Assembly (NCBI GenBank): GCA_019745975.1
Contig: JAIESQ010000014.1
Coordinates: 1-40,310, forward strand
Length of the DNA: 40,310 nucleotides
Direction: 5' to 3'
DNA from: Pirellulales bacterium
Lineage (GTDB): Bacteria > Planctomycetota > Planctomycetia > Pirellulales > JAEUIK01
Shown here: in pieces, positions 2,214 to 35,989 of the stretch
Layout: each line of letters starts with the position of its first letter
Numbering within the stretch: position 1 is the stretch's first letter
The notes under the pieces: model-generated
Told to the model about the DNA's origin: nothing
Databases searched by the model: none
Seen by the model: the letters and a program-made list of their open reading frames with translations, nothing else
Program-made: the position numbers and the translations under genes

Positions 2214-3170
2214 CTAGTTCGCCCGCTGCGCGGTGGGGAGCTCGACCGCCCGCGCCTCGGCCGGGGCCGCCGCGGACGTCGGGGCATAAATCGCTTGCCA
2301 CAATCCCACCTCGAGCTGGTGCAGGGACTGCACGTCGAACCGCGGCAGCGCCGCCAGCGTGCGAACTTGCGGCGGAATGGCGACGGGGCGGCCCGTCGGC
2401 AGCTTGGCAACGGCGAACGCCCGCGTGTTCGGGATACCGAGTGTGAACTTGCTGGCGTCAACGTAGAGCTGGTTCTCTTCGACCATGTTACGCGGCAGCC
2501 ACTGCACCTCGGCCGAAGCCTGGGCATAGTCGCCCGCGGTGTCGAGCTCGACCTGCCAGGCCAGCGTGAAGAACTGGGCATTGCGATTATCTACCATCAC
2601 GGCATAGCGCAAGATCGAGTCGACGTGTTCGACGCCACGCCGCACGATGGCGCGAAAATCGACGATCGCCATGCCGTCGGTCTGCGCGATGCGCTGCACG
2701 CTATCCATGTTGCGTTCGGCGCCATTGAGCACTTGCCGCTGAATGAGCCCGAGGTTGCCCGGGCTTTCGCTGTTGAGCACCTGATGGCCGCCTTGCACGG
2801 TCACGGCCAGGCCTACCGCCACGCGATCGAGCGCGTAGGGATGGGTCGCTCCCGCGGGGTTCTGCTTGGCCGACGCCAAAATGATCGTAGTCAACAAAGC
2901 GGCATTCTGCCGCACGACCTGCATCACCTGATTGACGTCACCCTGAGTCACCCGGGGCTGACTCTTGATGATCAAAGCGCTCCAATCGCGCGGCGCCGTG
3001 TCGCCGATAAGCGTGCCAGCGGCAATGCGGTCGAGACCGCGCGGCTGCGTATCGAAGCGCGGGGTGAGCTTCTCAGCGGCCCGCGTTGGGATCGCTGTGG
3101 CCAAGGCAGCAAGCCCAACCGCAACCAGCAGCAAATTCCGTCGGCCAGCGGCGCGTGACCAGTGGTTCAT
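2214..3170 (-). CDS. Secreted protein of unknown function
   Basis: 318 residues from ATG 3170, with GGGAG a few bases upstream. The N-terminus is a signal peptide (LLLVAVGLAALATAIPTRAAE). The mature part is mixed alpha/beta in character with no catalytic motif I recognise. It has few cysteines and several Gln/Asn-rich stretches (for example around residues 70-90 and 130-150). The C-terminus is Ala/Pro-rich. It is transcribed away from shc, so the 287 bp between them should contain divergent promoters. I cannot name the family. Confidence 0.7.
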   Translation of the reverse strand: MNHWSRAAGRRNLLLVAVGLAALATAIPTRAAEKLTPRFDTQPRGLDRIAAGTLIGDTAPRDWSALIIKSQPRVTQGDVNQVMQVVRQNAALLTTIILASAKQNPAGATHPYALDRVAVGLAVTVQGGHQVLNSESPGNLGLIQRQVLNGAERNMDSVQRIAQTDGMAIVDFRAIVRRGVEHVDSILRYAVMVDNRNAQFFTLAWQVELDTAGDYAQASAEVQWLPRNMVEENQLYVDASKFTLGIPNTRAFAVAKLPTGRPVAIPPQVRTLAALPRFDVQSLHQLEVGLWQAIYAPTSAAAPAEARAVELPTAQRAN

Positions 3171-3457
3171 GACAGCATCTCCCTATCCCGCGCGAATCCA
3201 AACCGGCGTGGGTTGTCTCGCGTACTAGTCTACGGGCTAGGCCCCGATTCGGACAACCACGCTTAGCTCATCGCGCTGGCAGCTCCTGGCTATTGCGGGA
3301 ACTGCCAGCACTTGTGTTGGTAGCTAGCCTGGCTTGCCACTGCTCTTGTCGATCGAGGTGGGCTCGTCTAAGCTTCCGCTCCCCGCGACCCATCCCGATT
3401 GCGCGGGGCATTTCGGTCACGGATGACCCAGCCCGCACTTCGTTGAGAGCCGTTGGA

Positions 3458-5617
3458 ATGGAATCCAGGCAATACGTTCGGATCGCGAATCTTGAACCCG
3501 AATATCCTGCCGCACCGGTCGCGCGCGATCGCGAGCCAACCGAACCGCGGCTGAGCACGGCCGTCAAACAGTCGGTGCTGCGCACGCGACACTGGCTATT
3601 GCAGGAGCAGCACGCCGACGGCTATTGGTGCGGCGAGCTCGAGGGAGACACGATCCTCGAGAGCGAGTTTATTCTGCTCTTGGCCTTCTTGGGCGAACAT
3701 GAATCGGACCTGGCCCGCCGCATGGCGCGCCACCTGCTCGAGAAGCAGTGCCCCGACGGCGGCTGGACGATGTACCCCGGTGGCAAGGTCGAGATTTCGG
3801 GCACCGTCAAAAACTACTTCGCGTTGAAGCTCACGGGCCACGACCCGTGCGCCGAATATATGCAGCGCGCCCGAGCGGCCATTCTGCGCCACGGCGGCGC
3901 CGACGCGGTCAACAGCTTCACTCGCTTCTATCTGGCGATGTTGGGCCAGATCTCTTACGAGCAGTGCCCGTCGGTTCCGGCCGAGCTGATGCTGCTGCCC
4001 AGTTGGAGCCCGATCAACTTGTATCGCGTCAGCGCCTGGTCGCGAACGATCATCGTGCCGTTGTCGATCGTCTCGGCCCTGAAGCCAGTGCGCACGTTCG
4101 CGCCCGAGCTGGGCATCCGCGAGCTGTTCATCGATCCCCCCGACACCTGGCCGCTGCCACGCTGCCCGGGCTTGGCCGGCAGCACGGGCCTCGTGAGCTG
4201 GGATCGCTTTTTCCGGCTGGTCGACAGGGCCTTCAAGTGGTTCGAGCGGCGCGATTGGACGCCCTTGCGCAAGCGCGCGATCGCCGCGGCCTGCGATTGG
4301 ACCTTGGAGCGGTTTGCGGCCAGCGATGGTCTGGGAGCCATCTTTCCGCCGATGGTCTGGAGCACAATCGCACTCAAGGCGCTAGGCTATCCCGACGACG
4401 GACCGGAACTGAAATACTGCCGCGCGCGCCTCGACGGTCTGCTGTGCGAAAACGCCGCCGAAGAAACTGCCTGGCTGCAACCTTGCAAGTCGCCGGTGTG
4501 GGATACCGCGATCACGCTCCGCGCGCTGGCCGACAGCGGCCTGGGCCCCGAACACGCGGCGATCCAACGCGGCACGCGCTGGCTGCTCGATCGCCAGATC
4601 CGCCAGCCCGGCGACTGGTCGAAAACGGTCGCAGCCGAACCCGGTGGCTGGTGCTTCGAACACGAGAATAGTTTCTATCCCGACCTCGACGACACGGCCA
4701 TGGTCGTGAGCGTGCTGCGACAGCAATTCCAGGGCGATGCGCCCGACGCGCCAGGGTTACCCCCTGGCTTGCAGCTTGTCGGCGAACACGTGGCCAGCGA
4801 TCGCAAGGAGGCGCATCAACGAGTCGGTCGCTGGGACGAAATCGCCGCCGCCATTGACCGCGCACAGCGCTGGATTCTGGCCATGCAGAATCGCGACGGC
4901 GGCTGGGGCGCCTTCGATCACGACAACGATCACGAGTTTCTCTGCTACGTCCCCTTCGCCGATCACAACGCGATGATCGACCCCAGTTCGCCCGACCTCA
5001 CCGGCCGCGTGCTCGAATCGCTCTGTCGATTGGGCAAGCGCGTGGGGGACAAGGCGGTTGATCGCGCGGTCGACTACTTGCGCGCCACTCAGGAGGCCGA
5101 CGGCAGTTGGTTCGGCCGCTGGGGAGTGAATTACGTCTACGGCACCTGGCTGGCCCTGTCCGGCCTGACCCAAGCCGGCGTCGATCGCCACGATCCGATG
5201 ATTGTCTCCGGCGCCAACTGGCTCTTGAGTTACCAGCAGCCATGCGGCGGCTGGGGCGAATCGCCCGACAGCTACGACAACCCCAGCTTGCGCGGCCAGG
5301 GGAACCCCACCGCCTCGCAAACCGCCTGGGCGCTGTTGGGCCTGATCGCCTCCGGATACGCCGATCACCCGGCCGTGACCCGAGGGGTGCGCTACTTGCT
5401 CAGTCAGCAGTTGCCCGACGGCAGTTGGGACGAGCCAGAATTCACCGGCACCGGTTTCCCGCGCGTGTTCTATCTGCGCTATCACCTGTACCGCATTTAT
5501 TTCCCGCTCATGGCCCTGTCGCGTTGGGCCACAGCCGCGTCGGCCCGACACGATGACACCCCCGAGCGTTTGCGGGTGGTAGCGCCCGTCGCACCCGTGA
5601 CCGCCGCCAGCGCCTAA
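3458..5617 (+). CDS. shc: Squalene-hopene cyclase
   Basis: 719 residues from ATG 3458; the open frame extends upstream but that part is unrelated to the family. The enzyme cyclises squalene to hopene/hopanol in one step at the membrane. The catalytic acid motif DLDDTA (residues 409-414) matches the DxDDTA of the class II triterpene cyclases. Several QW-type repeats are visible, including QNRDGGWGAFD and QEADGSWFGRWGVNYVYGTW, and the C-terminal QLPDGSWDE followed by GTGFPRVFYLRYHLYRIYFP is typical. Length and ends fit a full-length SHC. It is followed 202 bp later by hpnH on the same strand, which performs the next step in making C35 hopanoids. No hpnC, hpnD or hpnE is in the window. Confidence 0.97.
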   Translation: MESRQYVRIANLEPEYPAAPVARDREPTEPRLSTAVKQSVLRTRHWLLQEQHADGYWCGELEGDTILESEFILLLAFLGEHESDLARRMARHLLEKQCPDGGWTMYPGGKVEISGTVKNYFALKLTGHDPCAEYMQRARAAILRHGGADAVNSFTRFYLAMLGQISYEQCPSVPAELMLLPSWSPINLYRVSAWSRTIIVPLSIVSALKPVRTFAPELGIRELFIDPPDTWPLPRCPGLAGSTGLVSWDRFFRLVDRAFKWFERRDWTPLRKRAIAAACDWTLERFAASDGLGAIFPPMVWSTIALKALGYPDDGPELKYCRARLDGLLCENAAEETAWLQPCKSPVWDTAITLRALADSGLGPEHAAIQRGTRWLLDRQIRQPGDWSKTVAAEPGGWCFEHENSFYPDLDDTAMVVSVLRQQFQGDAPDAPGLPPGLQLVGEHVASDRKEAHQRVGRWDEIAAAIDRAQRWILAMQNRDGGWGAFDHDNDHEFLCYVPFADHNAMIDPSSPDLTGRVLESLCRLGKRVGDKAVDRAVDYLRATQEADGSWFGRWGVNYVYGTWLALSGLTQAGVDRHDPMIVSGANWLLSYQQPCGGWGESPDSYDNPSLRGQGNPTASQTAWALLGLIASGYADHPAVTRGVRYLLSQQLPDGSWDEPEFTGTGFPRVFYLRYHLYRIYFPLMALSRWATAASARHDDTPERLRVVAPVAPVTAASA

Positions 5618-5724
5618 GCCCGAACCACCAGCGCCGTCGGCCAACTACCGCCCGGCGATTTTGCCCGCGTTAACTTCGACCCACCAACCGATCCAGGCTC
5701 GACCACCAGGCAACGCTTCTCGGC

Positions 5725-5764
5725 AACCCTCTGCCCTTGTCTGCAACGGCAGGGTGAGGGGTTT
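5725..5764. repeat. Imperfect palindrome between shc and hpnH
   Basis: AACCCTC (5725-5731) faces GAGGGGTTT (5756-5764), and the inner parts TGCCC and GGCAGGGT also oppose each other. It could end part of the shc transcript or be a copy of an interspersed repeat. Only one copy is in the window. Confidence 0.4.
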
Positions 5765-5819
5765 CCAGAAACCGAGAGTTGCCATCTGGTCGCACCACAG
5801 CAGGGAGGCTGTGCCGGTC

Positions 5820-6839
5820 ATGCGATTCCCGCTCTCGCTCACCAGCACCATGACGGCGTACATGCTCAAGAAGAAGCTCGCGGGCGAGCGGCGCTACCCG
5901 CTCGTACTGATGCTCGAGCCGTTGCACGCTTGCAATCTCACCTGCACCGGCTGCGGGCGGATTCGCGAGTACGTGAGTACGATCAAAGACAAGCTCACGG
6001 TCGACGAGTGCCTGGCCTCCGTCGATGAGTGCGGCGCGCCGGTCGTGAGCATCTGCGGCGGCGAGCCGATGATCTACCCGCAGATCGAAGAGCTCGTAGC
6101 CAAGATCATCGAGCGCAAGAAGTTCGTCTACCTCTGCACGAACGGCATGTTCATCCGCAAAAAGCTCGCGGGCTTCAAAGCCACGAACCGCTTTTTCTTC
6201 AACGTGCATCTCGACGGCATGGAAGACTCGCACGACCTGGCCGTCGAGCGCAAGGGGGTATTCACCGAGGCGGTCGAAGGAATCAAAGCCGCCAAGGCGG
6301 CCGGCTTCATCGTCTGCACGAACACCACGATCTACAAGGAAACCGACATGCACGAGATCGCCGTGCTGTTGGGCTATCTGACCGAACTGGGCGTCGACGG
6401 CTTCATGCTCTCGCCGGCCTATGGTTACAGCGCCGTGCAGGAGACGAATCCCGATGGCGCCGCCCAGATCTTCATGACGCGCGAGGATGTGCATGCCAAA
6501 TTCAAGCAGGCGCGCGATCTGTTGCGCGGCTTCAAACTCAACACGTCGCCTGTGTATCTCGAGTTCTTGCGCGGCGAGCGCGATTTGAAGTGCGCCGCTT
6601 GGGCCAACCCCACGCGCAACATCCGCGGTTGGAAGGGCCCTTGCTACCTGATCACCGACAAGCACTACAAGACGCACAAAGATCTCGTGCAACTGACCGA
6701 TTGGGACAAGCTCGGCCGTGGCAACGATCCGCGCTGCGAACACTGCATGGTACATTGCGGCTTCGAGCCGGCCGCCGTGCTCGGCGTCAACAAGCGGCTC
6801 GGCGATACGTTCAAGATGGCCCTCTGGCAATTGACGTAG
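5820..6839 (+). CDS. hpnH: Adenosyl-hopene transferase HpnH (radical SAM)
   Basis: 339 residues from ATG 5820, with GGGAGG at 5803-5808 (11 nt spacing). The longer frame from 5661 has no family character. HpnH joins the 5'-deoxyadenosyl radical of SAM to hopene, giving adenosylhopane, the precursor of extended C35 hopanoids. The radical SAM cluster site is C38-x3-C42-x2-C45 in the stretch LHACNLTCTGCGR. The GGEP motif follows (SICGGEPMIY). A C-terminal cysteine group (RCEHCMVHCG) is present, as expected of the family. Adjacent to and co-directional with shc, so the pair probably acts in one pathway and may be co-transcribed. Confidence 0.96.
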   Translation: MRFPLSLTSTMTAYMLKKKLAGERRYPLVLMLEPLHACNLTCTGCGRIREYVSTIKDKLTVDECLASVDECGAPVVSICGGEPMIYPQIEELVAKIIERKKFVYLCTNGMFIRKKLAGFKATNRFFFNVHLDGMEDSHDLAVERKGVFTEAVEGIKAAKAAGFIVCTNTTIYKETDMHEIAVLLGYLTELGVDGFMLSPAYGYSAVQETNPDGAAQIFMTREDVHAKFKQARDLLRGFKLNTSPVYLEFLRGERDLKCAAWANPTRNIRGWKGPCYLITDKHYKTHKDLVQLTDWDKLGRGNDPRCEHCMVHCGFEPAAVLGVNKRLGDTFKMALWQLT

Positions 6840-6863
6840 GGCGAGGCTCCTTTGTTGATCGTG

Positions 6864-6900
6864 TGCCACGGGCTCTGCCCGCGCCGTCTGCTCTGTGGCA
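6864..6900. repeat. Hairpin element TGCCAC...GTGGCA
   Basis: The outer arms TGCCAC (6864-6869) and GTGGCA (6895-6900) enclose an inner CGGGC-TCT-GCCCG hairpin (6869-6881). It abuts the next hairpin repeat and resembles it in having TGCCAC/GTGGCA ends. It lies 24 bp after the hpnH stop. Confidence 0.5.
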
Positions 6901-6972
6901 TTGGGTGCCACTGCTGGCTTGTCCAGCAGTGCTTGGATCGAGTGTGTACTGCGATGCTTCTTGCAGTGGCAG
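6901..6972. repeat. REP-like element, family A, copy 1
   Basis: CACTGCTGG (6909-6917), loop CTTGT, then CCAGCAGTG (6923-6931) form a perfect 9-bp hairpin. A right-hand GCAGTGGCA (6963-6971) is the complement of TGCCACTGC (6906-6914), so the left arm can pair in two ways. Same family as 7441-7512 and 27048-27121. It lies between hpnH and the next gene and overlaps the start of the longest open frame there, which argues against that upstream start. Confidence 0.8.
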
Positions 6973-7002
6973 CCGATGTGGCGCGGTATACTCACCGGCA
7001 GT

Positions 7003-8331
7003 ATGCATCGCGCCCACGCCAGCGCCCGAACGTACGACCAATGGCGCGATGTGCTGCGCGGAGTGCGGTTGCCGGCCGTCGTCGTCGATCTAGCCGCCTT
7101 CGATCGCAACGTCGCCCGTTTTGCCGACGTGCTGCGCCAGGCCGGCCATCGCCACACGCTGCGCGTGGCCACCAAGTCGATCCGAGTGCCGGCGCTCATT
7201 CGCCGCGTGCTCGATTTCGGAGCGCCCTATCAAGGGCTGATGTGCTATGCGGCCGAGGAGGCGGCGTTTCTGGCCAGCCAGTGCTTCGACGATTTGCTCG
7301 TCGCCTATCCGACCGTGCAGCCGAGCGATCTGGCGGCGCTGTCCCAGTTGCACGCGGCCGGCAAGAGAATCCGCCTGATCGCCGATATCCGCGTGCAATT
7401 GGAACGATTGTCGGCGGCACTTGCGCAACGAGATCACAACTTGGGTGCCACTGCTAGCTTGCCTAGCAGTGCATCTGGGCGCCCGGCAATGCTGGACGAG
7501 CCAGCAGTGGCACACACTTCGGTTCAAGCTTCGACGCGCCCGTTTGAAGTCGTGCTCGATGTCGATATGTCGTGGCGCCCCGCCGGCGGGCGCCTGCACC
7601 TGGGCGTGCGGCGCAGCCCGCTACGATCGGTCGACGATGTCGTCGAGCTGTGCCGCGTGGCGCGCGACTTGCCGAACCTTCGCATCGTCGGCCTGATGGG
7701 CTACGAGGCGCAAGTCGCCGGGCTGGGTGATCGCAATCCGTTCAAGCGGCTGACCAACCCGATCGCTGGCGTGATTCGCCGCCGCTCGGTGCAGGCAGTC
7801 GCCCGGCTGCGCGAGCAACTTGCCGCGTCACTGGTGCGCGAAGGGATCACGCTCGAACTTTTCAACGGCGGAGGCACCGGTTCGGCCGATTACACGGCGG
7901 CCGAACCGTGGCTCACCGAGGTGACCGTCGGTTCCGGCTTCCTCTGCTCGCACTTGTTCGATTACTACTCGAACGTAGCGCCCGAGCCCGCCTGTTTCTT
8001 CGCCTTGCAAATGACGCGCAGTTCCGATGTGGGCTATGTGACCTGCCAGGGGGGTGGATACATCGCGTCCGGCGAGCCGGGCTGGGACAAAGTGCCGCGC
8101 CCCTGGCTGCCGGCCGGGCTGAAGCTTGTCTCAACCGAAGGGTGCGGCGAAGTGCAGACGCCGCTCGCTGTGCCGCCAGGCGTATCGCTCGTGCCTGGCG
8201 ATCCGGTGTTGTTCCGCCACGCCAAAGCGGGGGAACTAGCCGAGCACTTCAACGAGTATCTATTGGTCGACCCCTCGGGCAGCGTCACCCCCACGCCGAC
8301 GTACCGAGGACTGGGGAAGGCGTTCCTATAA
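7003..8331 (+). CDS. PLP-dependent alanine racemase / D-threonine aldolase family protein
   Basis: 442 residues from ATG 7003 (alternative ATG 6976). The frame is open from 6895, but that start lies within a repeat. The N-terminal alanine-racemase-type barrel has the PLP lysine in RVATKSIRVP (K58). Further barrel motifs are LDVDMSWRPAGGRLHLGVR, LMGYEAQVAG and FNGGGTGS. The C-terminal part is of the D-serine dehydratase-like type (VPGDPVLFRHAKAGELAEHFNEYLLV), as in D-threonine aldolases and COG3616 deaminases. The usual H-x-C zinc pair is not evident (HAKAGE), so metal dependence is uncertain. Likely substrate: a D-amino acid or hydroxy-amino acid. Odd: residues about 148-170 are encoded by a complete REP-like hairpin (7441-7512), in frame, in a loop before the LDVD strand. 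The gene ends 4 bp from the convergent neighbour. Confidence 0.85.
   Translation: MHRAHASARTYDQWRDVLRGVRLPAVVVDLAAFDRNVARFADVLRQAGHRHTLRVATKSIRVPALIRRVLDFGAPYQGLMCYAAEEAAFLASQCFDDLLVAYPTVQPSDLAALSQLHAAGKRIRLIADIRVQLERLSAALAQRDHNLGATASLPSSASGRPAMLDEPAVAHTSVQASTRPFEVVLDVDMSWRPAGGRLHLGVRRSPLRSVDDVVELCRVARDLPNLRIVGLMGYEAQVAGLGDRNPFKRLTNPIAGVIRRRSVQAVARLREQLAASLVREGITLELFNGGGTGSADYTAAEPWLTEVTVGSGFLCSHLFDYYSNVAPEPACFFALQMTRSSDVGYVTCQGGGYIASGEPGWDKVPRPWLPAGLKLVSTEGCGEVQTPLAVPPGVSLVPGDPVLFRHAKAGELAEHFNEYLLVDPSGSVTPTPTYRGLGKAFL
7441..7512. repeat. REP-like element, family A, copy 2, inside a coding sequence
   Basis: CACTGCTAG (7449-7457), CTTGC loop, CTAGCAGTG (7463-7471). Compared with copies 1 and 3, one stem pair has changed from G-C to A-T on both sides. 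The right half contains TGCTGG-ACGAG-CCAGCA (7490-7506) and ends with GCAGTGGCA (7504-7512), the complement of TGCCACTGC at the left. The whole element is read through in frame by the PLP gene. Confidence 0.85.
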
Positions 8332-10541: not shown

Positions 10542-13500
10542 TCACTCGCTCGGCACGCGGCGCACCGTGTAGTGGGCCTCGTCGGGCACAAGCGCCGCTC
10601 CGCCGGGACCAAGCCCGCGCAACCGAATCTCGTAAACGCAATCGGTGCGCAGCTTGCCCAATTCGAGCCGCGCTTCCAAGCGTTCGGTCGAAAACTCAAC
10701 CGCGCGAATCGTCTCGCGACGGCGGTCGACGTCGGGCCCGCCGTACTCAGGGGTCGAAATCCGCCGATACGATTCGATTGCATAGTTCTCAGCGCTGGCG
10801 CCGCGATCGGCGTCGACTGGCCCGGTGAAGTGAATCGTGAAGCCACGCGGCGCGATCGTGACCTTGGCGATCCCCAGCGGCCACTGGCCGGTCGGCCGCA
10901 GCCGCACGATCGAACCGGTGTTCGCCCCGGCGCCCCAGCCGCTGTCGCGCAGGTTGCCGACGTACAAGCCTCCCGCAGGCGAAACGGCACAAGCAACCGG
11001 CCCTTCGAACGTCGGCGCGTCGGCGGTTGCCGGCGGCACGCTGAACGGATAGGCCGCCCCCTGATAGACGCCCTCGACGCGTTCGAGCGACATGCGAATC
11101 AAGCGCCGCGTATCGTATTCGCAACCGATCAGATGTCCCTCGAAGGGGCCAAACACATCGCGGCCCGTCTGGCGACGCAGGGCAGGGGGGGTGTCCAAAA
11201 ACGCGATCCCGTTGACGCTGCGTGTCCAGGGGTGCGGGATTTCGATGGCCGCCGCGCGGAACTCGGGCGGCTTCACGCCTGCGGCAGCGAGCTCTCTCGC
11301 TTCGAGCTTGTTGATGAAGCCGTAACGCATCGCCGGTTCGACGTGGTTCAACTCGTTGAACGGGTTGTAGTTCCCCTGGTTGTCGCTGGCGAATAATTCG
11401 CCGTGGCGATCGACGGCCAGCCCCATCGGGAAGCGCAGCCCTGCAGCGTAGGGCTCGATCGTCCAAGGCTGACGCGGCGCGGCCCCGCGCGGCGGCGGCA
11501 ACAACCGCACAATGCGGCCGCGCAAGAACGCTTCGGCCGGTGAGCGGTCGTCTTGCTGGCAAGGGAGCGCAGCGAAATAGCCCCCTTGGCCGTCGCCTGG
11601 CAAGCCGACCGCCCAATCGTGATAGTCGTCGGTGCGCCCCCAGCCGGAGGCGAGCACTTCGAACGTATCAGCGACCTGATCATTGTTGAGGTCCGACAAG
11701 CGCACCAGGCCCGGCTTATGGATGACGTCGACGGCGTGTTGCTTCGCATGCCCAAACGAATCCGCAATTCCATACGGCGCCGCCAGCCCATCGGCGAACA
11801 GCTCAAGCCGGTCTTCGAGATGATCGTTGTCTTCATCTCGGGCGACATAGACTTGTCCCTTGAGCGACGTGAAGACAAGCTCGCTGCCATTGCGCCAGGC
11901 CAAGCTCGTCGGCATGATCTCTGTTGGCAGCGGGAGTTGAATTGCCTCGAAGCCCGGCACTACGCCAAGCTTTGTTGCGATGGGCGGCACTTCAACTGAC
12001 TGTGGTGCAAGGTATTGATCGACCGGGGCGAAGCTCTGGTACGCAACTTCAAAACTTGCCGCACCCTGTAAATCTGGCGTGCTCCGCAGCACATGTTCGA
12101 CGCTGGCCTGGGCCAGCGATTCGATTTGCCGATCTTCGACGACAGCGCGGGCGCTTCCCAACGCGCGGCCGATACGCAGTGCTTGTCCCTCGTTGGGTGC
12201 GGGCCAAACTTCGCCGGGACCTGCCCAAAGGCGCAGCACCACCTGCCAACCAGGTGGTACGCCGGTGACTTCGACGCGACGAGAAAAGCCGCTCGAATCT
12301 CCTTCGACCGCGGGAGATTCCGGCATCAGGCTTTGCATTACTTCGAGTTCGCACCGCACGCTGTCGTCAAGCAGGAACTTCAAGCGCTCACGAAACCGGA
12401 AACCGGGCGCCTCGTCGAAATAAGACTCGAGCCGCACCAGCGATTGCCCGACGCGCTGCGGGGCCACGATCTCCTCGCCGCGCACCAGCAAGATATCGCT
12501 CGTCGCCAAGGCATCGTCATCGTTCTCATTGTCAGGCAAAGGCGCCACAAGCGTGCCGCCAGGCTCCCAGTGCCAGCTTTTCCCCTTGGTGCGCTGCCGG
12601 GCCGTGTCGCCAATCCACCAGGCAGCAAGGCGGTTCGTCTCCAGATCGAACAAAATGTTGTGGCGGTTAGCCAACCCGATCACCAGCGGATCGACGAACT
12701 TACGATCGCCGAACTTGAACACGTCCTGCACGACCACGGGCGATGCATGTGGTTCGCCGGGCTGGCGCTCGATGTTCCGCTGCCGCAGCACGCGCACCGG
12801 GTTCGGCTCGGGTGGATTAAAGCCGGGGCGATTCAAGACCGTCCAGACCGCCGCCAATTGCACGTCGAGTCGGTCCTCGCTCACCCCGCGCACCGGCTGC
12901 TGCACGGCCGGCATCTCGATTCGGGGTACGATTCGGGCTGGATTGCGCACCCAGCGTTCGAACCAGGTCGATCGTACGCGCTCGCCGACCAGGGAGAGGT
13001 TCACCCCGCGCGTGCCCGGCTCGCTACGCAGTGGTTCGACATTGCCGATCTGATGGCAGCTTACGCAGCCGAAACCGTCACTGGTGACCAGTCGCGCGCC
13101 GGGCGCGACGAGCGATTCGCCGGCCAGCTCGGTCAGCGCGCGGCTCGAGAAACCTTCCTCGGCAGCCGGCGCCCCCTCTGGGATGCGATCCGTCGCAACG
13201 AAGTGTTCGACCAACTGCGCCACGTCGGCGTCGTTGAAATCGAATCGCGGCATCCGCACCGATAGCCAGGGACGCAGCGGATCGTGGCTCAACTTGATCG
13301 CCGCCGACAGGGCCTTCTCATGGAGCTTGTCCCCCACCGAATCGAGCGGGGGCGGTGTCAATCCACCCAGCGACGTGCCCAACGCCGGGAGCGCTGCTGC
13401 GATCGCCGGCGCTTGCGCGGCCAGGCCCAGTGCACCTCCGCGGGCGTGGCAGCTCAAGCAGTTGTGCTGGGCCAGCAGACTTGTTCCGCGATCGTGTGCG

Positions 13501-27215: not shown

Positions 27216-29693
27216 TCAGCTTGCCGGGCGCAGTTCCAGCGTATGCGCCGTCGCCCCGGGCAAAAACGGCGTCGGCTTCCCATCGCACCAGGCGCGGTGC
27301 GCATCGTCGTAATGCGGCGACAGTGGATGTCCGCTCTGACCGCAGGGCATGTGGAGGTACGCCTTGTCTTCGTGCCCTGGCGAGACCGCCATCCGCTGCG
27401 AGGCGCCCGAAGTGGGCGTCTGAATGCGCGGCAGATCGGCGCTATCGCCGGGCAATGGCTCAGCCGGCATGTCGAGCCAGCGTCCCAGTCGGGGCTCGCC
27501 GATGCTGAGCGGATGCTGAATTCGCGTGGTGTTGCGCTGGCCCCAGGTCCGATTGGCCAGCGAGCCACCCGCGGCGGTCTGCTCCACGTACACGGTGTCG
27601 ACCGCGCTCAGCAACAAGGCCTCCCAATTCGAATACTTGGGATCGAGCAAATGGCGTGGCTGCTGCGTCACCAATCGCCAGACCGGACCCTCGATCCGCT
27701 CCAAGCGCATCATGTTTAGATCGCGATCGACCTCTTTGGCCTTGGCCACCAGCGGATCGACCGCGCGGCGCAGCACCTCGCGCCGCCAGTCGCGCACCAG
27801 CAGATAGCCCACCGAATTGATCGCCGCGCGCCCCCCCCACTTTTCGACCTGCTCGCGAAACTCGCGGCGCGTGGGGCGTTCGGCGAGCGCTTCGTCGGTG
27901 AGCGTGTCCAAAAGCAATTTCTGCCAGCGCTCCAGAAACACCGCGTGATCGTCCAACTGCACTTTAAGCATGTCTTGTTCGTCGACCTTGTCGAGCGCCG
28001 CCAGGTCGTCGCGAATTTGCTGGGCACGCGCCCCCAGGTCGTAGCCGCCGTCACCCATGCGCGCGAGATTGTCGCCCCCAACGACGCGCGCGTTCGCGGT
28101 CCAGATCCGGCCATCGGGCGGATCGACAAACTTCGGATACTCGTCGGGCGATCGCCAGCCATCCCAGCGGCACGAACCATCGGCCCAGGAGGTCGGCAGC
28201 CGGCCGTCGAAGCCGACCCGCCGCGGCATCCGCCCGATAATCGTCCAGGCAATCCGCCCCGTGCGATCGCCGACAACGAAGTTCTGATGCGGGGAACCGC
28301 ACTGTGTGGCCAGCGCCAGCGCCGCGTCGAGATCGTCGACATTCTCCATCCGCAGCAAGCCCAGGTTCACGCCGTCGACGTCGTGCGCCACCCAGCGGTG
28401 GGCTAGCGGGCGGTTCTCCGCGTCGCGGGCCACGATCGGGCCCCAAATTGTCGACACGATCTCCAGCGGCTGCTCGGCGCCTCCCTTGACCTTGATCAGT
28501 TCGGTCGCGTGCTCAAAGCGGCGCGGACCGTCGGGCGTGAGGTATTCCTCGGGGTTATCCGCCGAAACTTCGACCATTACCAGGTCGGACCAGTCCCCCT
28601 CGCTGTTCGTGAAGCCCCAGGCGATGTGGCCGTTGCTCCCCACGACCATCGCCGGCGTCCCAGGCAGCGTGACTCCGGTGATCGACCGCTCGGTGCCCCC
28701 CGCGTCGCTCCAGACAAATCGCGCGCGATACCAGATGTGGGGCACGCGAATCCCAAGGTGCATGTCGTTGGCGACAATCGCGCCACCATGTTTCGAGCGC
28801 GCGCCGGCCATCGCCCAGTTGTTGCTCCCCGGCCGACACTCCTCGTCGCGGTCGACGCGGAAAAAGGCCTTGGCGAACCGCGCCGCCGCATTGTCGCGCT
28901 CGCCGGCCGCGGCAGCCCGCGCGGGTTCGGCCGCCGGTTCGTCGGCTGGCGGATTCACGGCCGGCGTCGCGCGTAGGTCGAACACTTCGGCGCTGGGAAT
29001 GGCCGCGACTTCCAGCGGTGCGCCTTCGAGCGGCGCATCCCACTCGGTCCCTAGCGGAGTGAGAAACTCATACAGCGAACCCGGCAGGCGGTCGTGCAAT
29101 AGCCCTAACGCCCTTTCATCGACAGGGTCGCTTCCTTGCAGATCGAGATACATCGCATAGAGCACCAGCACGCTGTCTTCGACTTGCCACGGTTGCGGCT
29201 CGGTGCGAAAGACGTAGTACTCGAACGGCTTCTTCTTAAGCGACTTCACGCCCGCGTTCACCCCATTGGCATACGCTTCGAGCAACTCGCGGTCGTCGCG
29301 CGTGTGGGGCGCTTCGACCACTTGCTGGGCGCGCCAACGAAAGCGGTGGATGCGATGCTGGCGATCGGCGTCGACCACGGCGCTTCCCACCAACTCGGCC
29401 AGTTCGCCCGCCGCCACGCGGCGCAACAAATCCATCTGAAAGAACCGGTCCTGTCCGTGACAAAAGCCCGTGGCGAAAGCCAGGTCGACACGGCTGCGCG
29501 CGGTGATGGTCGGCACGCCGAGTTGATCGCGCTCGACGCGGACTGGCGCCGACAGGCCAGCCAGCGCGAGTTGTCCATCGAGCTGCGGCAAGCTGCCTGC
29601 GAGCTGGCGGTATCCCCAGAAGACGGTTCCGCCCACCAGCAGGGCCAGACCTAAAATCACGGCGACGGAAATGCGCACGAGACGACGGAGCAT
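27216..29693 (-). CDS. Penicillin acylase family N-terminal nucleophile hydrolase
   Basis: 825 residues from ATG 29693. An N-terminal hydrophobic segment (about 8-27) anchors or exports it. The alpha chain includes LGVPTITARSRVDLAFATGFCHGQDRFFQMD. The self-cleavage point is probably just before S290 in CRPGSNNW, the family's nucleophile serine, after an Ala/Pro/Asp-rich spacer (about 245-275). The beta chain has GGAIVANDMHLGIRVPHIWYRA, TGVTLPGTPAMVVGSNGHIAWGFTN and the C-terminal HMPCGQSGHPLSPHYDD. Members hydrolyse amide bonds of acylated amines, including penicillins and acyl-homoserine lactones; the substrate here is unknown. The kinase gene lies 141 bp upstream on the same strand. Confidence 0.93.
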   Translation of the reverse strand: MLRRLVRISVAVILGLALLVGGTVFWGYRQLAGSLPQLDGQLALAGLSAPVRVERDQLGVPTITARSRVDLAFATGFCHGQDRFFQMDLLRRVAAGELAELVGSAVVDADRQHRIHRFRWRAQQVVEAPHTRDDRELLEAYANGVNAGVKSLKKKPFEYYVFRTEPQPWQVEDSVLVLYAMYLDLQGSDPVDERALGLLHDRLPGSLYEFLTPLGTEWDAPLEGAPLEVAAIPSAEVFDLRATPAVNPPADEPAAEPARAAAAGERDNAAARFAKAFFRVDRDEECRPGSNNWAMAGARSKHGGAIVANDMHLGIRVPHIWYRARFVWSDAGGTERSITGVTLPGTPAMVVGSNGHIAWGFTNSEGDWSDLVMVEVSADNPEEYLTPDGPRRFEHATELIKVKGGAEQPLEIVSTIWGPIVARDAENRPLAHRWVAHDVDGVNLGLLRMENVDDLDAALALATQCGSPHQNFVVGDRTGRIAWTIIGRMPRRVGFDGRLPTSWADGSCRWDGWRSPDEYPKFVDPPDGRIWTANARVVGGDNLARMGDGGYDLGARAQQIRDDLAALDKVDEQDMLKVQLDDHAVFLERWQKLLLDTLTDEALAERPTRREFREQVEKWGGRAAINSVGYLLVRDWRREVLRRAVDPLVAKAKEVDRDLNMMRLERIEGPVWRLVTQQPRHLLDPKYSNWEALLLSAVDTVYVEQTAAGGSLANRTWGQRNTTRIQHPLSIGEPRLGRWLDMPAEPLPGDSADLPRIQTPTSGASQRMAVSPGHEDKAYLHMPCGQSGHPLSPHYDDAHRAWCDGKPTPFLPGATAHTLELRPAS

Positions 29694-29834
29694 GACGTCA
29701 CTTGCTTCGGATAGAGGTGTCTAGCCTGCTTGGCGCGTGGCGCGGATTGGCGGGCAAACATGCAAGATAACCGCTAGCCAACGGTCCGGCGAGTGCGCGT
29801 TATCGCGACTTGTCGCGCTGCAGGGGGGTGCCCG

Positions 29835-32354
29835 TTAGTCGGCGTCGACAGGCGCCCAATGTCCACCCCAGCCTTGGTAGAGCGAGTCAAGTAGCGCTTC
29901 CCAATCGGCCCGCGAGCGACTATCGGGGAAGGGCTGCGGCGCTACCGGCGAGACGGAGCTCCAAATGATCTCGAACTCGCCGTTGGCCTGTAGCCGGCCG
30001 ATGCGCGCCGTCTGTGCGACATGCATCGTGGCCGGGTCGACCCACTCGTTTCCGGCCGGCCCGTCGATGCGCTGACTCTTCAGGGCCTCACGCACGGTGG
30101 CGACGTCGTCCGTGCCGGCGGCGGCGACCGCTTGGGCCCACAGTTTGACCCCCACGTAGGCGGCGACCATCGGATCGGTCGCTTTGCGCTGTCCGTTGAA
30201 GTTGTAGGAAAGCGCTTCGAGGAACTTCTGGTTCGTCGGCCGTTCGATCGCCGGAAAGTAGCTCCAGGCCGCGTAGTCGCCGGTCGTCGCCGCCGAGTTG
30301 AGGCTCGACAGCTCGTTCGAGGTCAGGCTGAACGACAGGACCGGCACCTTGTCGGGCCGGATGCCGGCCGCGCGCAGCGCCCGGAACAAGGCCACGTTCG
30401 TGTCGCCGTTGACCGTGTTGAGGATCACGTCGGGCTGCGCTTTGACGATCTGCTGCGCCACCCGCTCGACTTCGATCGCCCCCAGCGGCAGGAAGGCCTC
30501 GCCCACCAGCTCGGCCTGGCCCATCGACTTCAACTGATCCTTGATGATCTCGTGGGCCGCCCGCGGGAAGACGTAGTCCGACCCGACATGAAAGAAGCGT
30601 CGCTTGTCGAGGAAGGCGTAGCACCACCGTACCGCCGGAATGATCTGCTGGTTCGGCGCGGCGCCGACGTAGAGAATGTTGGGCGACTCTTCGAGCCCTT
30701 CGTACTGCAGCGGATAAACGAGCAGGTGATTGTTGGTCTCGACGACCGGCTTGACGCTCTTACGCGCCGCGGAGGTCCAGCAGCCGAAGATCACCGAAAC
30801 ATCATCGACGGTGATCAACCGCTCGGCCTCGGCGGCGAATGCGTCCCAGTCTGACTTGCCGTCGCGGACGACCGCTTCGACCTTGCGGCCCAATAGTCCG
30901 CCCGCGGCGTTGACTTCGTCGATGGCCATGAGCGTGGCGTCGACCACCGGCGCCGAGCTAATGGCAATCGTGCCCGACAGCGAGTGCAGCACGCCCACTT
31001 TGATCGACGGGAGATCCGCGCCCACGGCAGTCGGCGCGGCGCTGTGGGGCCACCACTGGATGCCAATAGCGGCCGCCACACAGCCGCCGAAGCCGGCGAT
31101 CACCGACCCGACGAACAGCCGCCGCGAACGTCGCCGCGCGGCTTCCACCCGGCGGATCACCTTGGGCCGTGCGCTGGGACGCGTGGCTCCGCTCACGGGC
31201 AAACGCGAGCGCTGGCGAGCACTGGTGCGGCGCAGCAGGGCGGTCTTGTCGCCGCTGTTAGCCCCCAACAAAGGAGGTTGACCATTCAAGTAGCGGTGCA
31301 GATCGTCGGCCACACTCTTGGCCGTCGGATAGCGATCGGCGAGTTCCTTCTCCAGGCACTTCGAGACGATTTGCTCCAGGTGCGCGGGGCAATCGTGACG
31401 CAACTCGCTGATCGGCTCCGGATCGTCGGAGACGACCATCTGCACGGTCTCAACATCATTGCGACCGACAAACGGCGGCTGCCCCGTGAGCATCTCGTAG
31501 AGAATCACCCCCAGCCCGTAGACGTCGGTCCCCGGGCCGATGTTCTCGGTTTCGCCCAGCGCCTGCTCGGGCGCCATGTACGAGGGAGTGCCCATCACCG
31601 AGCCGACGCGCGTAAGCTGCACTTCCCCTTCGAGTCGCTTGGCCAGTCCGAAGTCGGTGAGCTTCGGGATGCCCAATCCGCTGCCGTCTTCCAGCGGCGC
31701 GTCGGGTCCCGACAAGAGCACGTTCGCCGGCTTCAAGTCGCGATGCACGATCCCCCGCTCGTGCGCGTGATGCAGCCCGCGCGCCACCCCTTCGGCCAGC
31801 AGAACCGCGTCGCGATACTCCAACGGCCCGTCGATGAGCAGCCGGTCGACGCTCCCTCCTTCGACAAACTCCAGCGTGAAGTACGGGCAGCCATCCTTGC
31901 TGCCGATGTCGTAGATATGGACGATATTCGGATGCTGTAAGCGCGCCACCGCCTCGGCTTCGACACGAAACCGCGACAGGGCCGTGGGTGACGCATGGAT
32001 GCCCGAAAGCACCATCTTGATAGCGACCAGTCGATTGAGCCCGATCTGCCGCGCCTTGTAGACGATCCCCATGCCGCCGCGGCCGAGCTCGCCGAGAATC
32101 TCGTAGCCCGGTAGCGAAGGGGCCGTCGGCAGATCGCCCGCGGGGCGCGGCCCATCGTCGACGCTCGAGTTTGCGCTGCGATCGACGGTTTCGCCCAACG
32201 TTTCAACTTCGCCGAGCGCGGCCAATCGCTCGCGAAAGGTATCGAGCAACTCGGGGCAATCGCGGCACAGCTCTTCAGGCGAGACCTGCGTTCCCTTGCG
32301 GAGGTTGCGCTCCCAGCGCAAGAGCAGATCGCCCAGCCGCGCATCTTCGCCCAT
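29835..32354 (-). CDS. Receptor-type Ser/Thr protein kinase with UrtA-like urea/amide-binding outer domain
   Basis: 839 residues from ATG 32354; the longer frame starts with a TTG. Order: a helical N-terminal extension (1-75) usual for planctomycete kinases; a Hanks-type kinase domain (about 84-355) with GRGGMGIVY, K113 in VAIKM, HRDLKPANVLL (D206), DFG (234-236) and GTPSYMAPEQ; a basic juxtamembrane stretch (about 370-410, many Arg); one transmembrane helix (about 412-431); then a periplasmic-binding-protein domain (about 449-835). That domain closely follows urea-binding UrtA in IKVGVLHSLSGTIAIS, VIFGCWTSAARKSVKPV, LVYPLQYEGLEESPN, GAAPNQQIIPAV and FFHVGSDYVFPR. Inferred role: sensing urea or a short amide outside and phosphorylating proteins inside. 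All kinase residues are intact. No urt transporter or urease gene is nearby. Confidence 0.93.
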   Translation of the reverse strand: MGEDARLGDLLLRWERNLRKGTQVSPEELCRDCPELLDTFRERLAALGEVETLGETVDRSANSSVDDGPRPAGDLPTAPSLPGYEILGELGRGGMGIVYKARQIGLNRLVAIKMVLSGIHASPTALSRFRVEAEAVARLQHPNIVHIYDIGSKDGCPYFTLEFVEGGSVDRLLIDGPLEYRDAVLLAEGVARGLHHAHERGIVHRDLKPANVLLSGPDAPLEDGSGLGIPKLTDFGLAKRLEGEVQLTRVGSVMGTPSYMAPEQALGETENIGPGTDVYGLGVILYEMLTGQPPFVGRNDVETVQMVVSDDPEPISELRHDCPAHLEQIVSKCLEKELADRYPTAKSVADDLHRYLNGQPPLLGANSGDKTALLRRTSARQRSRLPVSGATRPSARPKVIRRVEAARRRSRRLFVGSVIAGFGGCVAAAIGIQWWPHSAAPTAVGADLPSIKVGVLHSLSGTIAISSAPVVDATLMAIDEVNAAGGLLGRKVEAVVRDGKSDWDAFAAEAERLITVDDVSVIFGCWTSAARKSVKPVVETNNHLLVYPLQYEGLEESPNILYVGAAPNQQIIPAVRWCYAFLDKRRFFHVGSDYVFPRAAHEIIKDQLKSMGQAELVGEAFLPLGAIEVERVAQQIVKAQPDVILNTVNGDTNVALFRALRAAGIRPDKVPVLSFSLTSNELSSLNSAATTGDYAAWSYFPAIERPTNQKFLEALSYNFNGQRKATDPMVAAYVGVKLWAQAVAAAGTDDVATVREALKSQRIDGPAGNEWVDPATMHVAQTARIGRLQANGEFEIIWSSVSPVAPQPFPDSRSRADWEALLDSLYQGWGGHWAPVDAD

Positions 32355-32616
32355 GGTTGGCCGCCTTGGCAAGGAAGCATCCCGTTCGAGGATTTACGCC
32401 GGGCGTATGGTATGCGATCGCGCGGCGCACGCGCACCGCTGGCGCTCCTGGCTCACCGTCTCCCTGCGCGCGGCGCGATGCTCCTGATCTCCGAGAAATA
32501 TGGCTTATTCAGCGGGCGCCGGCAACCTGGCCAGCAGGGCAGCATGCGTTGGGCGAATGGGAACAGATCGATAGCGCCACGACCTTGCCAGGTCGTCGCA
32601 ATCCGCACACGTCGTA

Positions 32617-33915
32617 CTACGCGTCGACCAGTTCGCGCGTCGCGGGCGCGACCGTGCCTGGGGGCTCGAGCCAGTGCCGCATGGCGGGGGCCGCCACCAA
32701 CGACGTCACCAGCGCCATCACCACCAACGCGACATACGTTGGCTCGTCGATCACTCCTTGCTCCCGGCCGAGCGACGCTAGGATGATGCCGATCGCGCCG
32801 CGCGCGTTCATTCCCCAGGCCACGGCCCACGAGATGCGCGACGGCAGCCGACTCAGCCGCGCCGCCGCGTAGACGCTGCCGATCTTGCTGACCGACGCGA
32901 CCACGAGCACCGTCGCTAGCAGCGCGAAATCGAAACTCGTCACGAAATTTGTCGTCAGCCCCATCGACACGAAATAGATCGGCACGAAAAAACTCAGTAC
33001 GAACTGGTTCATCGCCTCGTAGGCTTCACTGCGTTCCTGGTCGCTGGGAGCCAACGACAAGCCGAGCAGAAACGGACCGAGAAACGCATGCACGCCGATC
33101 CGCTCGGCCACGGCCGCCGACAGCAACACCAGGATCGTCGCCAGGCCGATGAATCCACTCGGCCACACCGCGTGCCGTCGGGCAACACGCAGCGCCGGCA
33201 TTGCCACGAACCGCCCCAGGACGAGCGTGCCCGCGAAGAACAGCAACACCCACACGAGCGACAGGGCGCTACTCTGCAGATCGCCCGACACAACGGCCGA
33301 TTCGCCCAGCGACGAACCGGGCGGCGTGAACACGCTGAAGATCGCCGCCAACAGCGACCAGCTCATCAGATCGTCGATCGTCGTGGCGGTCATCAGTAGC
33401 GCGCCGAGCCGATCGCGCAACAGGCCGAGTTCCATCAGAATGCGCGCGAGCACTGGATTGGCCGTGTTCGCCAGCGCCGCGCCGATGAACAACCCGAACG
33501 CCAGCCGATGTGCCTGCGCTTGCTGGCCCCACAGGTCAGGCAGGAGGTAGACCACGGCCACGCCGCAGGCCAAGGGCACCAGCGTGCCAATCACGCCGAT
33601 CAGAAAGGCCGTGGTGCCATGCTGCGCCAACTGGCCGAGATCGATCTCCAGTCCCACCACAAACAGAAAGAACAACATCCCAAGCTTAATGGCCCCTCCG
33701 CGCAACAAGGCGACGTCGCCGGCCGCGGGAAAAAGCTGTGCCTGCAACTCCGGCGCGAGCCAGCCGAACACTGTCGGGCCGAGCAGAATGCCGCCGAGCA
33801 TCTCGCCCAACACGGCCGGCTGATGCAGCCGCCGCATGACGTGCCCGCACCCCAGCCCGCACGCCAGCATCACGGCGATCTGCACGAGAAACAGGATGAA
33901 GTCGTCGGCCGTCAT
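32617..33915 (-). CDS. CPA2-type cation/proton antiporter
   Basis: 432 residues from ATG 33915. Polytopic, with about 12-13 hydrophobic segments. Landmark segments are QPAVLGEMLGGILLGPTVFG, the start of the KefB/NapA-like fold, LGMLFFLFVVGLEIDLGQL, and TATTIDDLMSWSLLA, where the Asp pair DD probably takes part in ion exchange. Later helices include HAFLGPFLLGLSLAP and AWGMNARGAIGIILASLG. It lacks the C-terminal TrkA-N/RCK domain of KefB/KefC, so it should not be ligand gated that way. Role: Na+ or K+ exchange for protons across the inner membrane. The ion cannot be told. The start is 21 bp from a family B structured repeat. Confidence 0.92.
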   Translation of the reverse strand: MTADDFILFLVQIAVMLACGLGCGHVMRRLHQPAVLGEMLGGILLGPTVFGWLAPELQAQLFPAAGDVALLRGGAIKLGMLFFLFVVGLEIDLGQLAQHGTTAFLIGVIGTLVPLACGVAVVYLLPDLWGQQAQAHRLAFGLFIGAALANTANPVLARILMELGLLRDRLGALLMTATTIDDLMSWSLLAAIFSVFTPPGSSLGESAVVSGDLQSSALSLVWVLLFFAGTLVLGRFVAMPALRVARRHAVWPSGFIGLATILVLLSAAVAERIGVHAFLGPFLLGLSLAPSDQERSEAYEAMNQFVLSFFVPIYFVSMGLTTNFVTSFDFALLATVLVVASVSKIGSVYAAARLSRLPSRISWAVAWGMNARGAIGIILASLGREQGVIDEPTYVALVVMALVTSLVAAPAMRHWLEPPGTVAPATRELVDA

Positions 33916-35388: not shown

Positions 35389-35946
35389 TTACGTGCTCCA
35401 GATACTGCCTTGCTCTTCGTGCGGCCCGCGCGCCTTGTGCAAGAGCGCGACAAGCTGCTTGAGCTCACCCGCCTTCAAGTGCCCCAGTTGCCGCTCGTGA
35501 CACTCGCGAACTTCCGCCGCCAGGCGGTCGAGCAGCGCCAGCCCTGCCGCCGTGATCGAGACCTCCACGACGCGGCGGTTTTCCGGCCGGCGATCGCGGG
35601 CCACCAGCCCGCGCTCAGTGAGCTTGTCGACCAGCCGCGTGATATCAGGCGCGCGGGAGATCAACCTCCCGGCCAACGTGAGCGTGGCGACCGGATCGGG
35701 GTACGCGGCCCGCAACAAGCGCAGCGCGTTGTATTGCTGGGCGGTCAGGTCGTGGCGCGCGAAGAGCTCGTCTTCCAGGGTCCGCAGCCGGTCGTAGGTT
35801 CGCCAGAGATTGAGGTAGGCCTGCTGCTGGGGGGAGTCGAACCGGCGCTGGCGTGATTTGCGGGGGGCCTGACCGTTTTTCGCCGCCGCTTTCGTGGCGG
35901 CGCGGCGGCGGGGCAGGGCAGGGGGGCGCTTGGCGGCGGTGCTCAT
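35389..35946 (-). CDS. MarR family transcriptional regulator
   Basis: 185 residues from ATG 35946, leaving the palindrome at 35976-35989 upstream of the start; the frame to 35988 would cover that operator. An Ala/Arg/Lys-rich N-terminal tail (1-38) precedes the winged helix-turn-helix core: LTAQQYNALRLLRAA, LAGRLISRAPDITRLVDKLTERGLVARDRRPENRRVVEVSIT (wing and recognition helix), then a dimerisation helix. Binds DNA as a dimer and is usually released by a small phenolic or oxidant ligand. First gene of a pair with the halogenase-like enzyme, so it probably represses that enzyme and itself. Confidence 0.93.
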   Translation of the reverse strand: MSTAAKRPPALPRRRAATKAAAKNGQAPRKSRQRRFDSPQQQAYLNLWRTYDRLRTLEDELFARHDLTAQQYNALRLLRAAYPDPVATLTLAGRLISRAPDITRLVDKLTERGLVARDRRPENRRVVEVSITAAGLALLDRLAAEVRECHERQLGHLKAGELKQLVALLHKARGPHEEQGSIWST

Positions 35947-35975
35947 AAGGGCGATTGTAACCCGTCCCGGCAATG

Positions 35976-35989
35976 ATTGTCCAGACAAT
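35976..35989. promoter_or_regulatory. Candidate MarR operator
   Basis: ATTGTC-CA-GACAAT, a 6-2-6 perfect inverted repeat, begins 29 bp before the MarR start codon. The next bases (TTGTTCAGAC) hold a second partial half site. Position and symmetry fit autorepression; binding is inferred. Confidence 0.55.

Follow-up and report, generated by a model that had tools for sequence, protein, structure and literature searches.

The window analysed here is a stretch of 40,310 nucleotides from a Pirellulales bacterium of the class Planctomycetia (assembly GCA_019745975.1, contig JAIESQ010000014.1), and it carries a minus-strand gene whose product is almost certainly a receptor kinase with the topology kinase, membrane helix, outer UrtA-type sensor. 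Receptor kinases themselves are known; the new feature is a receptor kinase sensor taken from a urea transporter, UrtABCDE. The gene belongs to a family whose pockets diverge and is no isolated case. The best explanation overall, which we regard as probably correct, is a single-pass receptor Ser/Thr kinase whose UrtA-type Venus flytrap would sense urea or a compound of very similar shape. Sequence comparison supports both the receptor-kinase architecture and the UrtA-type pocket of the window protein. The gene is divided as follows.

29835..32354, minus strand: whole gene, Ser/Thr kinase, membrane helix and UrtA-type sensor, 839 amino acids from the ATG
32106..32354, minus strand: N-terminal segment, residues 1-83, resembling the stretch ahead of the L066 kinase (18-member alignment)
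31320..32105, minus strand: Hanks kinase domain, residues 84-345, with K113, D206, N211 and D234 (Pfam and alignment)
31116..31319, minus strand: juxtamembrane linker, residues 346-413, Arg-rich directly ahead of the helix
31059..31115, minus strand: single predicted transmembrane helix, residues 414-432 (420-438 in the 845-residue numbering), positive side towards the kinase
29913..31004, minus strand: UrtA-type Venus-flytrap domain, residues 451-814 (Pfam, phmmer and fold search)
29838..29912, minus strand: C-terminal tail, residues 815-839, with some positions conserved among 18 aligned fusions

The gene starts at the ATG at 32354, an alternative in-frame TTG at 32372 would extend the product to 845 amino acids, and the reading frame contains no internal stop. 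The first-pass annotation, made from the letters of the window, had proposed an intact Hanks kinase, one transmembrane helix and a complete UrtA-type solute-binding domain, and all three were recovered. Pfam places Pkinase at residues 84-345 (176.8 bits) and Peripla_BP_5 at 451-814 (469.9 bits), both far over cut-off. K113, the HRD aspartate D206, N211 and the DFG aspartate D234 are invariant across the 18-member family alignment, and the window kinase carries the Hanks-type signature (VAIK Lys, HRD Asp, Asn, DFG Asp, APE Glu). Its best kinase models are bacterial PknB-type Ser/Thr kinases, it does not classify as an insulin-receptor-like tyrosine kinase, and the best NCBIfam kinase model, NF033483, scores 286.7 bits against a cut-off of 450. 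One hydrophobic segment lies between kinase and sensor (residues 414-432, mean Kyte-Doolittle 2.03), with a net charge of +6 over the 15 residues on its kinase side and -1 over the 15 on its sensor side, a positive-inside pattern. The domain behind it contains all three motifs that had been quoted as those of UrtA. PASTA repeats gave no Pfam match at E 0.001 in the window protein, which has Peripla_BP_5 instead.

For the wider family, a sample of 148 class genomes out of a larger group was searched with PF13433, and all 78 matches of E 1.2e-59 or better were analysed, weaker matches being left out. The 78 proteins comprise 37 kinase-helix-sensor fusions, 3 sensor-histidine-kinase fusions and 38 stand-alone proteins (L050 and L056 are cut by a contig end). 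The kinase fusions are spread over 31 of the 148 genomes and nine family groups, with tandem pairs at three loci (L076, L093, L097). Every one of the 37 retains the catalytic residues at six positions, namely VAIK K, HRD D, the K and N after it, DFG D and APE E; 32 have a hydrophobic segment of at least 1.5, and 32 obey the positive-inside rule.

The sensor is close to UrtA by most measures. A phmmer search against solved structures placed 8tg1 first (381 bits), followed by 7s6f, 8hic and 7s6e, all UrtA or urea-binding proteins, with AmiC at 179 bits. In an AlphaFold job with ten sequences, the best sensor-only model reached a pLDDT (predicted local distance difference test) of 64.0 and a pTM (predicted template modelling score) of 0.67, the other four models lying at 39.6-44.3. 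Foldseek with this moderate model likewise suggested urea-binding proteins as the nearest folds, ranking first the same structures as the sequence search; since Foldseek here uses sequence as well as structure, its ranking partly mirrors the sequence. With TIGR03407, the UrtA model, the window protein scores 436.0 bits and its own-genome paralog 396.7, both under the cut-off of 492.75. Two further fusions reach 457.8 (L033) and 439.7 (L072), and a transporter-type UrtA from the same phylum, used as a control (L190), reaches 584.6. With its 436.0 bits the window sensor is UrtA-like, not UrtA under NCBI's rule.

Nine residues lie near the ligand in the P. marinus (Prochlorococcus) UrtA-urea structure: Trp120, Ser122, Tyr141, Gln144, Glu146, Tyr190, Phe192, Asn246 and Ser274 (PMC10392092). 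The same study reports that mutating Ser122, Gln144, Tyr190 or Asn246 strongly reduces or abolishes urea binding, that W120A abolishes it, that Tyr141, Glu146 and Ser274 mutants bind less, and that Phe192 matters little (PMC10392092). In the comparison with UrtA and AmiC that the first-pass annotation had proposed, the window sensor keeps nine of nine urea-site residues (W526, S528, Y547, Q550, E552, Y594, F596, N649, S676) and AmiC four of nine. The second fusion in the same genome (L042) keeps eight, with Ala at the Gln144 position. Across the 37 fusions all nine are present in 19, eight in 2 and seven or fewer in 16, with strongly altered pockets in STK_L097_5524 and STK_L103 (two of nine each).

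To place these counts we used as a control the 95 columns that are invariant in 14 reference proteins, namely two PDB chains and 12 proteins from the phylum (UrtB status unchecked for the genomes of 3 of the 12); the set excluded AmiC and four proteins whose genomes have no UrtB over cut-off. On average, random nine-column sets were complete in 3.0 fusions, and 40 of 10,000 draws reached 19 fusions or more. Among stand-alone UrtA-like proteins the pocket is kept at 0.58 against 0.75 for the other invariant columns, and the urea site is therefore changed there.

No urea permease scored over cut-off in the sampled genomes of the class. UrtB (TIGR03409) is over cut-off in none of the 148 genomes, the best match having 145 bits against 250.3. 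Outside the class it is over cut-off in 14 of 18 genomes chosen for strong PF13433 matches; the four without it host L003, L004, L006 and L007, whose sensors stand apart from the transporter-type ones in a quick tree. At the control locus L190 the genes read as urtABCDE, an ammonium transporter and urease (named from the starts of open reading frames, UrtA alone being profile-scored). The window genome is 99.94% complete, and its best matches are 58.3 bits for UrtB (cut-off 250.3) and 68.6 for UrtC (296.2), UrtD and UrtE not being searched. A Urt transporter elsewhere in that genome was considered and rejected: the UrtB and UrtC matches are weak, the best of them lies on contig C63 in what reads by eye as a LIV-type operon, and none of the open reading frames selected there matches the UrtA-family profile at E 1.

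Urea metabolism gave a similar result. In the window genome we found no match to the urease alpha or arginase family and allophanate hydrolase below its cut-off, urea carboxylase and amidases not being searched. Urease alpha at E below 1e-40 is present in 23 of the 148 class genomes and in 1 of the 31 fusion genomes; the profile cut-off gives a tally of 27, and six weak partial matches (E 1.5e-4 to 8.8e-4), including those in the fusion genomes G266 and G493, were not counted here. The first-pass annotation had called the protein a nitrogen-signal receptor, and that description finds no support in this genome, with UrtB and UrtC below cut-off and 30 of 31 fusion genomes without a strong urease.

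A probable explanation joins these observations. The kinase would lie in the cytoplasm, one helix would cross the membrane, and the UrtA-related Venus flytrap would be the sensor in the periplasm. Urea, or a compound shaped much like it, most likely enters this flytrap and closes it; closure would alter the pairing of receptors in the membrane through the single helix, and the altered pairing would switch the kinase on or off. The ligand, the control of the kinase, the dimer mechanism and the targets are what we infer. That a small ligand controls the kinase activity of the window protein is likely, and for urea as the ligand of this particular member we put the chances at even. As far as searched, the window genome has no known urea metabolism, so urea, if sensed, would be a cue rather than food, or else the ligand is a near analogue. 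The pocket is kept for urea in about half of the members found and changed in the rest, and the family should therefore hold several ligand specificities. A ligand can be guessed here because the sensor has solved relatives with a mapped pocket, and the paralogs form a ready series of natural pocket variants.

Several results weigh against this explanation. For the window protein taken alone, nine of nine kept residues are not significant (P 0.083 if pocket columns behave as other UrtA-invariant columns). The sensor model is only moderate, and AlphaFold for the whole protein gave a good kinase and poor structure elsewhere (mean pLDDT 59.5), so that the pocket match is one of residues, not of geometry. 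Five of the 37 fusions (L068, L079, L092 and both of L097) are without a clear hydrophobic segment. Permeases scoring 112-145 bits with the UrtB model occur in 29 of the 148 class genomes, including 8 fusion genomes; since they fall far below the cut-off we read them as probably LIV-type. Finally, as no known route of urea use or production was found, as far as searched, a urea sensor would be without obvious purpose.

The last point bears most directly on the strongest alternative, a receptor kinase for another small molecule (a short amide, a guanidine-like compound or other) that uses the same cage of aromatic, Gln and Asn residues, urea not being the natural ligand. AmiC, the Pseudomonas amide receptor, is an UrtA relative that serves sensing and not transport. 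It is a free protein where the window sensor is fused, its structures were solved with acetamide and butyramide according to their titles, and it is homologous while sharing four of nine pocket residues with the UrtA urea site. At least one pocket residue is changed in 18 of the 37 fusions, which also fits another ligand. However, the urea site is complete in the window protein and 18 other fusions, with all four of the residues that form hydrogen bonds to urea, and these residues are kept more than comparable UrtA-invariant columns. We consider this alternative rather unlikely. A sensor domain that binds no ligand and acts as a scaffold, or as a docking domain for another periplasmic protein, is improbable: the strongly changed pockets of STK_L097_5524 and STK_L103 would suit it, as would GlnH, proposed to work through the membrane protein GlnX (PMC9769921), but conservation of the pocket across the fusions exceeds that of comparable invariant columns. 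A false join of two adjacent genes in assembly or annotation, for which one could cite that the window is one contig of a 204-contig assembly, has a negligible chance and was rejected on 37 loci of the same order, some in single-contig genomes (G373, G152), and on the uninterrupted frame.

The single-pass kinase is one of several outputs to which UrtA-like sensors in the class appear to be connected. A chemoreceptor (MCP) gene adjoins 26 of the 38 stand-alone genes on the same strand (L041, L043, L048-L050, L052, L058-L063, L065, L067, L069, L070, L080, L082, L084, L089, L090, L096 and L098-L101), and no MCP gene lies within the fetched locus of any of the 37 kinase fusions. Relatives of CheW, CheR and CheA are found in 21, 21 and 20 of the 38 stand-alone loci. 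For example, the gene run at L041 reads by Pfam as dCache-HAMP-MCP, CheW, CheR and CheA, with dCache slightly under its cut-off. The pocket is changed in 22 of the 26 MCP-linked proteins and complete in four (L062, L065, L067, L069). A third arrangement fuses the sensor to a hybrid histidine kinase.

L037, 7139-10348: UrtA-type sensor and hybrid histidine kinase fusion
L038, 9186-12026: UrtA-type sensor and hybrid histidine kinase fusion
L040, 7542-10379: UrtA-type sensor and hybrid histidine kinase fusion

In all three the sensor stands at the very N-terminus with no hydrophobic segment, followed by HisKA, HATPase and receiver domains, and for that reason they look cytoplasmic; they are probably cytoplasmic sensors. 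Two of them keep nine of nine pocket residues and the third eight. Elsewhere, at L077, a stand-alone gene overlaps a histidine kinase gene. An AIM24-type gene (assigned by Pfam in one of five cases) adjoins four stand-alone genes; for a fifth stand-alone gene the distance is 259 bases, with the AIM24-type gene on the opposite strand. These five proteins (L047, L053, L054, L071, L078) come from genomes without UrtB over cut-off, and four of them have the full urea site; they group with transporter-type UrtA in the quick tree and may therefore be a different story.

From these arrangements UrtA in this class seems to have turned from uptake to sensing, cut loose from transport. A wider version is tentative, and we hold it somewhat less probable than not: UrtA would have been converted wholesale, one sensor lineage feeding three or more kinds of output: chemoreceptor arrays, cytoplasmic hybrid histidine kinases and a number of unrelated Ser/Thr kinase chassis. 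In cells without import or breakdown of urea, urea, or other small molecules in drifted paralogs, would then be nothing but a signal, perhaps one that reveals neighbours or hosts, read by ligand-gated receptor Ser/Thr kinases. If true, a part of a transporter became three kinds of sensor within one class, without its transporter.

In a quick mixture-model tree the 37 fused sensors form one side of a branch with a Shimodaira-Hasegawa-like approximate likelihood-ratio (SH-aLRT) support of 93. A more careful LG+G4 tree, with five long-branch rows removed (three fusions, HK_L040 and AmiC), needs two changes; the smallest clade that encloses the 34 fusions takes in a stand-alone protein and two histidine-kinase fusions as well (66/91), and in none of the 200 bootstrap trees do the fusions stay on one side of a branch. 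A single origin of the fused sensors is favoured but tentative. The kinases, placed against 81 others (80 loci among the kinase-motif matches listed, plus L195), split four ways, with 3, 14, 3 and 17 members; the tree requires five changes, of which the starred branches force four, and one clade for all fusion kinases is disfavoured (approximately unbiased test p 0.017, run after the tree was seen). The nearest relatives of the window sensor are the sensors of L033, L035 and L072, whose kinases belong to the group of 14. The window kinase, in turn, clusters with L066 and L079 and with L106 and L107, which look unfused. As its sensor and kinase have different nearest relatives, the sensor seems to have changed kinase. 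The family as a whole seems to be one sensor on several kinase chassis.

Searches beyond the class gave few comparable proteins. None of 2352 matching plasmid records covers at least 80% of the query. In 194 genomes of the phylum of G501 (L112, Verrucomicrobiales), the 26 matches with E 2.4e-56 or better are all confined to frames of 219-539 amino acids, and one weaker long frame that was inspected has no kinase. In 198 genomes of the G500 phylum (Streptomyces), two of the 15 matches with E 1.3e-78 or better lie in frames over 700 amino acids, both without a kinase; among the matches listed there, six weaker long frames were examined, and one encodes a Streptomyces kinase with another type of solute-binding protein. 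Among the strong matches listed outside the class in 392 genomes of the window's own phylum, one long frame was left untranslated (G271:C212, 1642 amino acids, UrtB beside it). At L195 of Streptomyces luteolifulvus, tandem Ser/Thr kinase genes occupy 2713-4884 and 4895-7501, the first fused to a LIV-type solute-binding domain. It likewise has kinase then solute-binding protein in one chain, the latter of the branched-chain-amino-acid type; its best NCBIfam models are AfsK and a LIV-type solute-binding protein, both below cut-off, and the UrtA-family profile gives 15.6 bits. L195 is probably an independent fusion. UrtA-like genes also occur on contigs of the IMG/VR viral collection (L200-L213), the aligned ones 40-43% identical to the window sensor, and these may be either true viral genes or mis-sorted bacterial contigs.

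Compared with known systems, the window sensor has the same fold, length and nine urea-site residues as UrtA of UrtABCDE (8hic, 7s6e, 7s6f, 8tg1). Unlike UrtA, it is fused behind a kinase and an internal helix rather than being a free secreted protein with a signal peptide, its genome has no UrtB over cut-off, and it scores below the TIGR03407 cut-off. PASTA kinases of the single-pass PknB type share the kinase, the one helix and a C-terminal outer sensor, whereas the window protein has a flytrap and not PASTA. Venus kinase receptors carry the flytrap at the N-terminus. They share a Venus flytrap, a single membrane helix and a kinase with the window protein and are insulin-receptor-like tyrosine kinases, whereas the window protein is a Ser/Thr kinase with a C-terminal flytrap; the likeness is analogy, not membership. 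A recombinant invertebrate receptor of this kind is reported to be activated by L-arginine (PMC2680970). In the actinobacterial GlnH-GlnX-PknG system, a periplasmic solute-binding protein is proposed to report nitrogen compounds to a cytoplasmic Ser/Thr kinase (PMC6069109, PMC9769921); there the parts are three proteins with aspartate and glutamate as ligands and another kinase architecture, and the window system is one protein. A survey of kinases in Planctomycetota and relatives counts 307 architectures with 105 groups of accessory domains and raises the possibility that similar ones evolved more than once; the terms solute, substrate-binding and urea are missing from its main text (PMC11032199). 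No paper on a kinase fused to UrtA was found in open-licence PubMed Central full text, judged by top-ranked titles and the starts of abstracts, and automatic annotations may well list the fusion already.

Conserved neighbours of the window gene were looked for without success: the four tested have no relative in the fetched loci, bar a 28%-identical exchanger fragment in L044, with flanks reaching at most about 7-9 kb and some contigs ending sooner. A scan of 29600-32640 for promoters and terminators gave nothing beyond chance. The first-pass annotation had stated that no urt, urease or amidase genes flank the gene; a penicillin amidase gene (PF01804, 27216-29693) does lie 141 bases downstream on the same strand, which corrects that statement, and it is neither an aliphatic amidase nor a urease. 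None of the other fetched loci showed a relative of it. At 4 of the 37 kinase fusions, in three family groups, a bestrophin-type channel gene (assigned by Pfam for three) follows 11-50 bases downstream on the same strand.

L042 (own paralog), 10785-11726: bestrophin-type gene
L085, 5959-6846: bestrophin-type gene
L103, 6002-6865: bestrophin-type gene
L104, 5749-6666: bestrophin-type gene

All four of these fusions have changed pockets, and the window gene has no bestrophin neighbour; the channel is a candidate effector of the fusions beside it. A related gene pair, MarR-like by eye, lies at 35389-35988 of the window, about 3 kb from the kinase-sensor gene, and at 76-552 of L042, about 7 kb from the paralog.

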